Position numbers and translations under genes: made by a program. DNA of 64,000 nucleotides from Bacillus pumilus (GTDB taxonomy: Bacteria; Bacillota; Bacilli; Bacillales; Bacillaceae). Positions 10,878 to 50,076 of this stretch are shown here, piece by piece (the stretch's first letter is position 1; every line of letters begins with the position of its first letter). The DNA lies in NCBI RefSeq assembly GCF_024498355.1, contig NZ_CP101833.1:973001-1037000 (forward strand), in the 5' to 3' direction. The notes beneath the pieces were generated by a model. The model ran no database searches. It was not told where the DNA came from and saw nothing but the letters and a program-made list of their open reading frames with translations.

Positions 10878-12377
10878 ATGCGAATTTTAATTAAAGGGCT
10901 GTCAGATGAGCGATTTCATCGCCCGCTTGTCAATATAGCAAACTTATTTGAAGAAGATAGTGAAGTGCTGTTTGATCTAGACGAACTGGATGATGGTTTA
11001 GTGATGGTGTTTAGCTGGAAAGAAGAACGAGGAATGATTGAAGCATCTGGCCATATCGCTGGATCAGAAATAAACAGTCGTTTTTCAAGAGATGTGCCAG
11101 AGGGCTTAAGCGATAAGGACCGCTGGAAGCAAATCAAAAACACAGTGCTCTCTGTTTATTTACACCTGCTTCAGGAGCATACAGGAATGACACAAAAATG
11201 GGGGATTCTCACCGGGATACGCCCTACGAAATTACTTCACAAGATGCTAAGAGAAGGCATGACAAAGGAAGAAGCACATGCGGCGTTAAAGCGTGATTAC
11301 TTGATTCATGATGAAAAAATTGATTTGATGCAGGAGATTGTCGACCGTCAGCTTCAAGCGATTCCAGATTTGTATGACCTTCAGCAGGAAGTGAGTATTT
11401 ATATTGGCATTCCTTTTTGCCCAACAAAATGTGCTTATTGCACGTTCCCTGCTTATGCCATTAAAGGACAAGCTGGAAGAGTGGGAACGTTTCTGTTCGG
11501 TCTGCATTATGAGATGCAAAAAATGGGCGCATGGTTAAAAGAACACGGGATCAAAGTGACGACCGTTTATTTTGGCGGAGGCACGCCAACGAGTATCACA
11601 GCGGAAGAAATGGATTTACTGTATGAAGAAATGTATCGCTCTTTTCCTGATGTGAAACATATTCGAGAAATTACTGTAGAAGCAGGACGTCCTGATACGA
11701 TTTCGCCTGATAAGCTAGAGGTGCTAAACCGCTACAATATTGACCGGATTAGCATCAACCCGCAATCATATGAGAATGAAACACTGAAAGCCATTGGCCG
11801 GCATCATAGTGTGGAAGAAACGATTGAAAAGTATCATTTATCAAGACAGTACGGCATGAATAATATTAACATGGACTTAATCATTGGTTTACCTGGAGAA
11901 GGGCTAAAGGAATTTCAGCACTCCTTGCAGCAGACCGAAGAACTAAGGCCTGAATCTTTAACTGTGCATACACTTTCCTTTAAAAGAGCGTCTGAGATGA
12001 CGCGCAATAAGGAGAAATATCAAGTGGCAGACCGTGAAGAAATCACACGTATGATGGATGAAGCGGTCGCTTGGACGAAAGCACATAAATATCATCCATA
12101 TTATTTATATAGACAAAAAAACATCTTAGGGAATCTCGAAAATGTCGGGTATTCATTAGATGGACAGGAAAGTTTGTATAATATCATCATTATGGAAGAA
12201 GTCCAGACGATCATTGGCATTGGATGCGGCGCAGCCAGTAAATTTATTGATCCGCGATCAGGAAAAATTACGCAGTATGCCAATCCAAAAGATCCAAAAT
12301 CGTATAATGATCGCTATGAGCACTATACGGAAGAGAAAATTCGATTCCTTGAGTCATTATTTGTTTCTCACGTTTAA
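10878..12377 (+). CDS. hemZ: Oxygen-independent coproporphyrinogen dehydrogenase-like radical SAM protein HemZ
   Basis: This 499-residue radical SAM protein of the HemN family has the cluster-binding motif CPTKCAYC after about residue 175, preceded by a 170-residue N-terminal domain, as in B. subtilis HemZ (about 501 residues). It continues with the HemN pattern YFGGGTPTS and ISINPQSYENETLKAIGRHHS. HemZ-type proteins have been assigned to anaerobic haem or iron metabolism; the precise reaction of HemZ is not firmly settled. AAGGTG precedes the ATG. The region after the stop has been occupied by a dispersed repeat. Confidence 0.9.
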   Translation: MRILIKGLSDERFHRPLVNIANLFEEDSEVLFDLDELDDGLVMVFSWKEERGMIEASGHIAGSEINSRFSRDVPEGLSDKDRWKQIKNTVLSVYLHLLQEHTGMTQKWGILTGIRPTKLLHKMLREGMTKEEAHAALKRDYLIHDEKIDLMQEIVDRQLQAIPDLYDLQQEVSIYIGIPFCPTKCAYCTFPAYAIKGQAGRVGTFLFGLHYEMQKMGAWLKEHGIKVTTVYFGGGTPTSITAEEMDLLYEEMYRSFPDVKHIREITVEAGRPDTISPDKLEVLNRYNIDRISINPQSYENETLKAIGRHHSVEETIEKYHLSRQYGMNNINMDLIIGLPGEGLKEFQHSLQQTEELRPESLTVHTLSFKRASEMTRNKEKYQVADREEITRMMDEAVAWTKAHKYHPYYLYRQKNILGNLENVGYSLDGQESLYNIIIMEEVQTIIGIGCGAASKFIDPRSGKITQYANPKDPKSYNDRYEHYTEEKIRFLESLFVSHV

Positions 12378-12402
12378 ACAATGCGGTGACGCAGTGTCTC
12401 AG

Positions 12403-12576
12403 ATTGTTGACAAAGGGCTAAAATGATCTTTATTTTAGCCCTTTGTCTTCTTTTCAGCGTGATATGAAAACCCTTGAAGTCTAGGAAGGACGAGTACCGG
12501 AGCGGAGCGAATTTGACATTCGTGAGCACCGGAACGCAGGACTGACACCGAATACGAGGGTTTGTCTACAAGCTGA
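12403..12576 (+). repeat. Dispersed terminator-associated repeat, copy 1
   Basis: This 174-bp copy of an element found four times in the window begins ATTGTTGACAAAGGGC and ends TTTGTCTACAAGCTGA. It has two modules. One is a 13-bp hairpin AAAGGGCTAAAAT/ATTTTAGCCCTTT. The other is a longer imperfect hairpin running from TCAGCGTG to the CTGA end, with AAACCC/GGGTTT and CCGGAGC/GAGCACCGG pairings. The CTGA end abuts the khtU terminator hairpin. No duplicate of that hairpin is seen on the hemZ side in this copy. Confidence 0.9.
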
Positions 12577-12602
12577 AAGGGTCCTTTATTCGGGACCCTT
12601 TT
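12577..12602. terminator. Bidirectional terminator between hemZ and khtU
   Basis: AAGGGTCC / GGGACCCTT with T runs on the plus side (CTTTTT). On the minus strand the T run after the hairpin is replaced by the repeat end (CTTTCAGCTTG). Confidence 0.75.
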
Positions 12603-27644: not shown

Positions 27645-27668
27645 AACCTCATCTTTTAAGATGAGGTA
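27645..27668 (-). repeat. Distal copy of the duplicated hit terminator
   Basis: AACCTCATCTTTTAAGATGA plus GGTA. On the minus strand this copy of the hairpin is followed by TTTTTC, so it keeps the T run of an intact terminator. A near-identical 24-bp copy stands at 27844-27867 on the other side of the repeat element. Confidence 0.8.
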
Positions 27669-27672
27669 TAGT

Positions 27673-27844
27673 CTGTTGACAAAGGGCTAAAATGAACTTT
27701 ATTTTAGCCCTTTGTCTTCTTTTCAGCGTGATAGAAAACCTTTGAAGTCTAGGAAGGACGAGTACCGGAGCGGAGCGAATTTGTCATTCGTGAGCACCGG
27801 CACGCAGACCTGACAACGAATGCGAGGGTTTGTCTACACGCTGA
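27673..27844 (+). repeat. Dispersed terminator-associated repeat, copy 2
   Basis: This 172-bp copy is about as long as copy 1 and very similar: TCTGTTGACAAAGGGC at the left, TTTGTCTACACGCTGA at the right, and the same two hairpin modules. It is inserted directly after the hit gene. The CTGA end touches the proximal hairpin, which overlaps the hit stop codon. A 24-bp hairpin sequence flanks both sides with one mismatch. Confidence 0.92.
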
Positions 27845-27867
27845 ACCTCATCTATTAAGATGAGGTA
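27844..27867 (-). repeat. Proximal copy of the duplicated hit terminator
   Basis: AACCTCATCTATTAAGATGA plus GGTA includes the hit stop codon (27855-27857). On the minus strand no T run follows; the repeat element begins at once with TCAGCGTG. Confidence 0.8.
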
Positions 27868-28283: not shown

Positions 28284-28750
28284 GCCGTGTCACTCCTCAT
28301 TATTTTTTCCTTTATCGTATCACAAAAAGAAGCAAAAAAGAAAACAGGACAAGCGAACTCCTTTGGTCGCTCATCCTGCTCCTGCAGAAGAAATGCTGAT
28401 GCTTTCATTCGATATGCCTTTTGAATTCTCTATTTACTGAAATAAAGAATTCATATGCCTGCTATTTCTGCCGTAAACACCTCATTTGACGATTGTATAG
28501 GACACAAAAATCAAGAATCAGTGAAGCAAAACAGAAGCTAAGGTTTTTAGATGAAAAACCAACTTGTCATGCGGTACTTTGCCTTTAACAAACACCTCAT
28601 TTACTTATTGGTCATCAAGTTCATTTCTTCTACATACATTATGATGACCAATGCGCCTATTTTTTATTCAGGCTCGTCTATAGGTAAACATTTCAAATTA
28701 CCTTTCGTTTTTGGTACTATAAAGGAAAAAAGAAAGAAAGGAACGAACTC
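28284..28750. other. Divergent hit/ecsA intergenic region
   Basis: This 467-bp region has no convincing gene. It holds a minus-strand hairpin at 28346-28378 (AGGATGAGCGA / TCGCTTGTCCT with two G-T pairs) followed by GTTTTCTTTTTT, resembling a terminator. An inverted repeat GAATTCTCTATTT / AAATAAAGAATTC lies at 28425-28454. A likely ecsA -10 (TACTATAAAG) lies near 28710. Short plus-strand frames here lack ribosome-binding sites. Confidence 0.45.
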
Positions 28751-43840: not shown

Positions 43841-43844
43841 AAAA

Positions 43845-43867
43845 AGAACCTCGACTATTGGGGTTCT
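43845..43867 (+). repeat. Proximal, degenerate copy of the yhfE/gltT terminator
   Basis: AGAACCTCGACTATTGGGGT plus TCT, with no T run after it because the repeat element begins at once (CAGCGTG). It resembles the intact hairpin at 44031-44056. Confidence 0.7.
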
Positions 43868-44025
43868 CAGCGTGTAGACAAACCCTCGCATTCTGTGTCA
43901 GTCCTGCGTACTGGTACTCACGAATGTCAAATTCGCTCCGCACCCTAGACTTCAAAGGTTTTCTATCACGCTGAACAGAAGACAAAGGGCTAAAATAAAG
44001 ATCATTTCAGCCCTTTGTCAACAAT
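43867..44025 (-). repeat. Dispersed terminator-associated repeat, copy 3
   Basis: This 159-bp copy is in reverse orientation relative to copies 1 and 2 and lacks about 14 bp between CTAGG and GCGGAGCG. On the plus strand it starts TCAGCGTGTAGACAAACCC and ends TTTGTCAACAAT. It lies between yhfE and gltT, flanked by two versions of the same terminator hairpin. Confidence 0.9.
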
Positions 44026-44030
44026 CAAAA

Positions 44031-44056
44031 AGAACCCCTTCTATCGGGGTTCTTTT
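44031..44056. terminator. Bidirectional terminator between yhfE and gltT
   Basis: AGAACCCC / GGGGTTCT with A run before and T run after. Confidence 0.88.
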
Positions 44057-49445: not shown

Positions 49446-49450
49446 AAAAG

Positions 49451-49468
49451 GGGAGTCTCTTATGAAGA
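49451..49468 (+). repeat. Proximal copy of the duplicated lcfB/yhfM terminator
   Basis: GGGAGTCTCTTATGAAGA is an exact 18-bp match to 49651-49668. Here the right arm of the hairpin has degraded to AGTTCCT, and the repeat element begins next. Confidence 0.85.
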
Positions 49469-49474
49469 AGTTCC

Positions 49475-49648
49475 TCAGCGTGAAGACAAACCCTCGCATT
49501 CGGTGTCAGTTCTGCGTGCTGGTGCTCACGAATATCAAATTCGCTCCGCGCCAGTACTCGGCCTTCCTAGACTTCAAGGGTTTTCATATCACGCTGAAAA
49601 GAAGACAAAGGGCTAAAATCAAGATCATTTTAGCCCTTTGTCAACAAT
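49475..49648 (-). repeat. Dispersed terminator-associated repeat, copy 4
   Basis: 174 bp, same orientation as copy 3. It starts TCAGCGTGAAGACAAACCC and ends CCTTTGTCAACAAT. Nearly identical to copy 1 over its whole length. Flanked by an exact 18-bp direct repeat taken from the terminator hairpin that overlaps the yhfM stop codon. Confidence 0.92.
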
Positions 49649-49675
49649 CTGGGAGTCTCTTATGAAGAGACTCCC
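49649..49675. terminator. Terminator between lcfB and yhfM
   Basis: GGGAGTCTC / GAGACTCCC with T after it on the plus strand (CTTTTG). It contains the yhfM stop codon at 49660. Confidence 0.8.
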
Positions 49676-50076
49676 TTTTGAATGGCTTCTTTTAACTGTT
49701 TCTGAAAAGAATTTGACTGTTTTTGATTCAGTTCATAATACGTGCCATCTACTAAAAAAACGACCTGAGAACGGTTGGTCCATAGCTGAAAGGTGGTGCC
49801 GTTTGTTCGTCCAAACATCACCTTGGCAATATAATCAGGTTTTTTTATATTTTTCTTAAGATGATTGCTTGTTTGTTTGCCTTTGTTTAATTCTTCAATT
49901 AAATCTTCAGCTGTGTCTTTATCATCTATTTCATAAGAAATGGACTGATTCGACGGTGAAAGCAATAATTTTTCTGCTCGATTCTCATCGAAAATGTCAC
50001 TAGTCCTGCTGAACACATAAAAGAAGGTGATCAGTAAAAGTCCAAAGATCACAATTCCTGCAAGAATTTTCTTCAT
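49660..50076 (-). CDS. yhfM: Hypothetical membrane-anchored protein YhfM
   Basis: This 138-residue protein has one N-terminal membrane helix (KKILAGIVIFGLLLITFFYVF) and an extracellular region without a named domain. GGAGG before the ATG at 50076 decides the start. The position before yhfN matches B. subtilis yhfM (about 131 residues). Function unknown. Its last codons are part of the terminator hairpin, and a copy of them survives at 49451 on the other side of the repeat. Confidence 0.78.
   Translation of the reverse strand: MKKILAGIVIFGLLLITFFYVFSRTSDIFDENRAEKLLLSPSNQSISYEIDDKDTAEDLIEELNKGKQTSNHLKKNIKKPDYIAKVMFGRTNGTTFQLWTNRSQVVFLVDGTYYELNQKQSNSFQKQLKEAIQKGVSS

Follow-up and report, generated by a model that had tools for sequence, protein, structure and literature searches.

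What is a short sequence that stands four times within 64 kb of a Bacillus pumilus chromosome, and how did its copies get there? The window, that is the whole stretch of 64,000 nucleotides that was analysed, comprises positions 973001-1037000 of a 3.65 Mb contig (G000:C1), G000 being the window's own genome. The initial annotation had described four copies with shared ends, two hairpin modules and near-perfect terminal inverted repeats, and it had seen no coding capacity in them. All four copies exist, with coordinates off by just 1-4 bases, and the shared ends and both hairpins are correct. So are the terminal inverted repeats (near-terminal GTTGACAAA / TTTGTCTAC), and the copies hold no open reading frame (ORF) of 100 amino acids or more. 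While the copies themselves were recognised correctly, the terminator stem-loops that flank them, the duplication of these stem-loops and the relation to the IS1182 family were missed. In our judgement it is very probable that the repeat is a non-autonomous mini-transposon of the IS1182 type, which is mobilised in trans and inserts into the stem-loops of intrinsic transcription terminators.

Two copies, c1 and c2, lie on the plus strand and two, c3 and c4, on the minus strand; where two of them form an inverted pair, complementarity is 85-96% over 65-229 nt. End comparison of genomic copies places the ends of the repeat, about 175 bp long, at CAG...CTG, with TAG as first triplet in c2 and TTG in c3. 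The terminal inverted repeat CAGnnTGTnGACAAA is present at each end of intact copies. Named according to the reading given above, the features of the four loci are the following.

12400..12575, plus strand: c1, full mini-transposon, CAG...CTG, delimited by copy-end comparison
12409..12447, plus strand: c1 hairpin 1, terminator-like, TTCTTTT following an 18-pair stem
12455..12575, plus strand: c1 hairpin 2, right-end inverted repeat around a conserved structured interior
12378..12397, plus strand: c1 left terminator stem-loop, directly 3' of the upstream gene 10878-12377, unlike the right-hand one
12576..12601, plus strand: c1 right terminator stem-loop; in the related genome G003 such a stem-loop follows a gene that is absent here
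27669..27843, plus strand: c2, full mini-transposon
27645..27668, plus strand: c2 duplicated terminator stem-loop, left copy, single in empty sites
27844..27867, plus strand: c2 duplicated terminator stem-loop, right copy
43868..44028, minus strand: c3, mini-transposon from which a short piece inside hairpin 2 is deleted
44030..44054, minus strand: c3 preceding terminator stem-loop (in the element's orientation)
43844..43867, minus strand: c3 following terminator stem-loop, a diverged duplicate, single in empty sites
49476..49651, minus strand: c4, full mini-transposon
49652..49677, minus strand: c4 preceding terminator stem-loop (in the element's orientation)
49450..49475, minus strand: c4 following stem-loop, diverged, a duplicate matching over 18 nt only

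Another inverted repeat pair in the window, 28297-28343 / 28691-28737, is 47 nt long and 72% complementary.

The suggestion that many more copies would be found genome-wide was right. A pattern for hairpin 1 (up to 3 mismatches) matches 83 places in the window's own genome and a pattern for hairpin 2 gives 36+35 = 71 matches, as against none for the reversed control of the first and none for the control of the second. Besides the four copies in the window there are about 80 further ones in this chromosome. Our copy set comprises at least 86 loci of the own genome holding at least 87 copies. Ten of the 87 are short, eight keeping little beyond hairpin 1 and two being without much of hairpin 2; the remaining 77 copies, left-truncated ones included, were analysed. 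At eight loci (L067, L072, L092, L103, L107, L115, L117 and L147) hairpin 1 is kept and little or nothing is left of hairpin 2, with cut points that differ, as though hairpin 1 had been retained as a terminator.

Copies typically follow one order: A-tract, stem-loop, CAG...CTG, the stem-loop again, T-tract. For each of the 77 copies, 50 bases of left flank were aligned with 50 bases of right flank, and 5,852 mismatched flank pairs served as control (median score 12, 99.9th percentile 25, which was taken as the limit). True pairs have a median score of 40, and 56 of the 77 copies reach the limit and thus carry the target site duplication expected of a MITE. Judged by eye, the match spans a whole stem-loop in 51 of the 56 copies and part of one in five (L085, which is c4, L088, L100, L111 and L137). 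After insertion the stem-loop, together with about one further base, stands on both sides of the element. The other 21 copies, c1 included, show no duplication above the limit. Twelve of them start at query position 4 or later, as though the left end had been lost, L108 is without a right end, and L077 and L133, with scores of 19 and 23, resemble diverged duplications; in the rest, c1 among them, the flanks differ. By simple ORF calling, 39 of the 77 copies lie between converging genes, 22 between genes of the same direction and none between diverging genes, a single gene having been called at 16. Dozens of copies can accumulate in this way without breaking genes, since the element enters hairpin terminators where genes end and, as a rule, the hairpin is then present on both sides.

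Comparison with related genomes demonstrates that the repeat moved in the past. We rebuilt seven pre-insertion sites by joining the flanks with one stem-loop and sought them in seven relatives, which amounts to 49 site-genome pairs. At six of the seven sites, 27 alignments cross the junction with a single stem-loop: six at the c2 site (one of them at 71% identity), five each at c3, L118, L113 and L143 (at L143 the stem is partly deleted in L227), and one at L127. Match coordinates point to two further unbroken matches. Four site-genome pairs are filled and have the stem-loop doubled, namely two sites in G003, one in G008 and the c2 site in G043; the element itself was detected at the filled sites of G003 and G008, and at G043 its presence is deduced from a 175-base gap. 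In the remaining 16 pairs, which were left uncounted, a contig end split the site, divergence was too great or other sequence lay in between. Among relatives the same sites are thus empty with one stem-loop or filled with two, and the repeat is not at identical places throughout, the arrangement that the initial annotation had set against its own reading. The MITE-like element first proposed is borne out by inverted repeats at its termini, by duplicated targets, by a copy number in the dozens and by sites both empty and filled.

A structured RNA element had been offered as the alternative, and it has some merit of its own. Folding of c1 as RNA gives two hairpins with a z-score of -6.7 (-6.2 when folded as DNA). 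For a covariation alignment, 27 copies were hand-picked from 53 representatives whose mutual similarity is below about 93%. RNAalifold assigns 54 pairs, 16 of which are changed on both sides; 97.6% of cells are paired, and none of 500 shuffles is as good in any of five measures, a control weakened by the relatedness of the copies and by the structure having been taken from the same alignment. Of the 93 cells in which both sides are changed, 78 belong to two helices, helix 2, which is hairpin 1, and helix 6, within hairpin 2. A stretch of 13 bases, ATTCGTGAGCACC, is invariant across the 27 aligned copies; this invariance is partly selected, as 13 of them were found by a pattern within hairpin 2 that contains it, and the 14 copies that were found otherwise, which are the ones that count, also have it. 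Hairpin 1 is terminator-like (one such structure found, 0.4 expected in shuffles). A promoter-like hexamer pair (TTGACA, 18, TATTTT; 10 of 12) overlaps it at 12407-12436, where 0.6 are expected by chance in the region. In a second subfamily, about 72 bases replace 17 in the middle of hairpin 2. Rfam gives no match at gathering score in the window, and the matches at a relaxed threshold are all far below gathering scores.

The covariation and the invariant stretch would be expected if the repeat were a structured RNA gene or a 3'-UTR regulatory RNA kept by the host and copied by ordinary duplication. Yet target duplications, sites empty in relatives, near-identical copies at unrelated genes and the lack of an Rfam match at cut-off in the window all speak against it, and we consider it very unlikely. 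A host RNA without any mobility is ruled out by the empty sites. Structure in RNA is conceivable as an added property, both hairpins covarying across species, but not as the origin of the repeat. As for the interior of hairpin 2, it may be an RNA module carried along as a passenger, or it may serve as a second site for protein binding.

The repeat was found in 21 of 41 genomes, that is in 21 of 25 genomes of its own genus (G000 included) and in none of 16 others. In the named collection at least 80 repeat loci are listed, with representatives in B. altitudinis, B. pumilus, B. safensis, B. zhangzhouensis, B. xiamenensis, B. australimaris, B. stratosphericus, B. inaquosorum, B. tequilensis, B. 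spizizenii, B. swezeyi, B. haynesii, B. paralicheniformis, B. glycinifermentans, B. sonorensis and unnamed Bacillus. Phage records gave no match to the repeat. Four matches were obtained in plasmid records, one from Bacillus, two from Stutzerimonas and one from Klebsiella. The Stutzerimonas and Klebsiella records (L060, L061; H1-H3) have one or no listed feature, which for Stutzerimonas rests on one of the two records, and are probably misassigned Bacillus DNA.

Which enzyme may have moved the repeat? The initial annotation had supposed a protein coded elsewhere, and this is the best reading, as the same genome codes for IS1182 transposases whose elements have similar ends and make a similar duplication. 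Of 44 genomes of the genus, 37 have genes matching NF033551 (IS1182), and 13 of these have matches over the cut-off. G000 has four intact transposase genes of this family and a decayed one of another type (type 2) with five stops. The type-2 transposase reaches 478 bits against NF033551, at a cut-off of 270. Around three of the four intact copies the terminator stem-loop is doubled in full; at the fourth (L181) just 14 nt of it are doubled. In most cases read, with L181 as an exception, the IS1182 elements of the genus behave like the repeat in both target and duplication.

In this bacterial order, 57 IS loci were tried for duplications; 44 gave distinct ones, ten gave none and three were skipped as repeats. 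The 44 distinct duplications are 13-42 nt long, as delimited by an end finder that picks the best of many end pairs by match length, not by palindrome, and that had no shuffled control. A target duplication of fixed length is ruled out by this range. ISfinder gives 0-60 bp for duplications of IS1182. Stem length and duplication length correlate with r = 0.67 for the IS and r = 0.43 for the repeat, but the stem finder ran into A/T tracts, which blurred it, and we therefore used a register test, asking how many of the seven outermost bases at the two ends of a duplication pair with each other. It was applied to 43 IS, L152 having been dropped as its left end is a neighbouring repeat copy. The duplication ends pair in register (at least 6 of 7) in 36 of the 43, and no shifted register exceeds 2 of 43; the means are 6.28 in register and at most 2.51 shifted. 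For the repeat, in the 46 of 77 copies with an ungapped match, the ends pair in register in 31 of 46 and in at most 7 of 46 when shifted (means 5.52 and at most 2.87). The duplication is thus as a rule the target palindrome itself, whatever its length, and in most IS cases its centre coincides with the dyad of that palindrome.

The repeat and the IS1182-family transposons of the same genome and order have a terminal motif in common, CAGnnYGTnGASAAA. More narrowly, CAGnnYGTnGACAAA is found in the repeat and in IS types 2 and 3 (one type-3 left end starts with CGG), and the own intact IS, of type 1, have CAGnnTGTnGAGAAA. The ends are CAGATTGTTGACAAAG / CAGCGTGTAGACAAAC in the repeat, CAGCTTGTAGACAAAG / CAGACCGTAGACAAAC in type 2 and CAGGCTGTCGAGAAAA / CAGATTGTAGAGAAAC in the own intact IS; the elements of the own intact transposases hence have GAG where the repeat has GAC. 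Among the IS loci read, none has exactly the two ends of the repeat, and the motif is common to three Bacillus IS1182 types. The Bacillus members of the family (NF033551) and the repeat are alike in end motif, in CAG...CTG termini, in a hairpin inside each end, in the terminator target and in the duplication of the stem-loop. Unlike them, the repeat has no transposase. When 80 IS loci were searched with BLAST for the interior of its hairpin 2, no IS body contained it, and the matches were adjoining or fused repeat copies. A simple derivation of the repeat from an IS by internal deletion is therefore unsupported. At L152 (G049) one terminator houses a repeat copy and, next to it, a full IS1182 element; the stem-loop occurs three times, ahead of the two, between them and behind them, so that one site was hit twice. 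L241 (G021) shows a fusion in which the right arm of the repeat joins the left end of a gene region of IS1182 type 2, apparently via the common end sequence GTAGAC.

We propose the following mechanism. A DDE transposase of the IS1182 family would act in trans on the repeat, as the likeness of ends and duplications suggests. Judging from the insertion product, it would read the stem-loop as a structure, either an extruded cruciform or a single-strand hairpin, and would measure no fixed stagger. On either strand the transposon ends would be joined to the foot of the stem, and fill-in would thereby copy the whole hairpin. The left terminator copy keeps its A-tract and loses its T-tract, CAG intervening, whereas the original T-tract stays with the right copy; hairpin 1, which with its T-rich tail TTCTTTT comes directly after the left copy, could take over as terminator there. 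As hairpin 1 may substitute and the right copy retains the T-tract, termination may be preserved and the site may be a safe one. The fuller proposal covers this clade of IS1182 transposons together with their mini-derivatives: target structure, not the enzyme, would set the duplication length, the enzyme would recognise an extruded terminator hairpin or its four-way junction and cut at the two feet, every insertion would copy a complete working hairpin, and the conserved structured RNA module of the mini-element would not stem from an IS. It strikes us as an even bet.

Another hairpin-reading enzyme, for instance the protein of a group IIC intron or a tyrosine transposase of the REP type, might instead move the repeat, the likeness of its ends to IS1182 then being a convergence on the same target. 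Group IIC introns insert beside terminators and REP-type transposases read hairpins. Against the presumed replication fork, 53 of the 77 copies are oriented (p = 0.0013), which could suggest a single-strand step; the same holds for 27 of the 39 copies between converging genes (p = 0.024) and for 10 of 11 places in G004, on the assumption that replication starts at coordinate 1 and ends near 1.85 Mb, with a like assumption for G004. Under the fuller proposal given above, such a bias would fit hairpins exposed on the lagging-strand template. However, the repeat has both the terminal motif and the stem-loop duplication in common with IS1182 elements, and to our knowledge neither REP-type tyrosine transposases nor group II introns make target duplications. 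We hold this explanation, too, to be very unlikely. Identity with a group IIC intron was rejected, as a target duplication is present and no group II intron model is among the Rfam matches in the window. That the flanking stem-loops are terminators carried by the element and not a duplication might be suspected as four IS1182 ends fold as hairpins, three of which run directly into a T-run, but the flanking stem-loop differs between sites and agrees within a site, and the empty site holds it once, so that this idea is already refuted and retains practically no probability.

Copy c1 is flanked by two different terminator stem-loops. In G003, a gene of 424 amino acids lies between two such terminators; its product, which is monooxygenase-like, gives a sub-threshold match to TIGR04439 (372 bits, cut-off 700). 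The start of the same gene follows the left terminator in G008 and G016, and G017 and G043 have a similar spacing. No ortholog of this gene was found in G000, only a 43% paralog. The different flanking terminators, and the absence from G000 of a gene that lies between such terminators in G003, suggest that c1 probably marks a gene deletion. Recombination between two repeat copies, one in each terminator, is probably what deleted the gene and is the simplest assumption; a deletion beside a single copy is a possible alternative. In G021 most of that gene was lost without a repeat being there.

Some features of this element have counterparts in known systems. Furi et al. 2016 (PMC4923244) describe IS1272 and TnSha1 of staphylococci, elements of the IS1182 family that target hairpins with little primary sequence preference, many of these being terminators (5 of 7 S. 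aureus sites were confirmed as such). Insertion is described there as involving partial deletion of the hairpin, blunt cuts and no target duplication. The same source cites Siguier et al. 2015 for palindromes as targets of some IS1182 members. In contrast to IS1272 and TnSha1, which delete part of the hairpin, the Bacillus repeat and IS1182 elements duplicate it. The pneumococcal BOX, RUP and SPRITE (PMC3049150) are small structured repeats that their authors think to be parasitic elements; compared by description only, they differ in belonging to another genus and to named families, and the abstract gives no terminator rule.

The initial annotation had recognised no known element in the repeat. 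This holds for Rfam and for the literature found, but the repeat is probably identical with an unnamed one from the genome of B. subtilis 168. The 1997 genome paper of Kunst et al. reportedly mentions a 190-bp repeat with ten copies in two subfamilies, confined to the origin half of the chromosome with five on each side, and is said to note it in B. licheniformis as well. The paper reportedly treats it simply as a repeat and mentions neither a transposon nor a terminator target nor a duplication. In G004, which we take to be B. subtilis 168, the repeat occurs whole or partial at 11 places, all at 0.32-0.74 or 3.11-4.14 Mb and two of them with a different central piece; this distribution agrees with the pattern of about ten copies, two subfamilies and the origin half that the paper reportedly describes. 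The subfamily with the different central piece is seen at about 319 and 515 kb of G004 (L384, L387-L389); L177 and L175 hold it as well. In the part of the literature that was covered, we found no paper linking the repeat to IS1182 or stating a rule of whole-palindrome duplication. New here are the likely IS1182 parentage of the repeat and its target rule.

An anonymous repeat of many Bacillus species, probably including B. subtilis 168, thereby becomes a mobile element with a clear target rule. Duplication of an entire palindrome of variable length would be an unusual product for a DDE transposase, and it offers a direct test of whether, inside the living cell, intrinsic terminators are extruded in the form of cruciforms or hairpins. 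If insertion leaves working terminators, this would be a transposon fitted to a safe harbour. Its copies may still reshape genomes, as c1, which probably marks the loss of one gene, illustrates.
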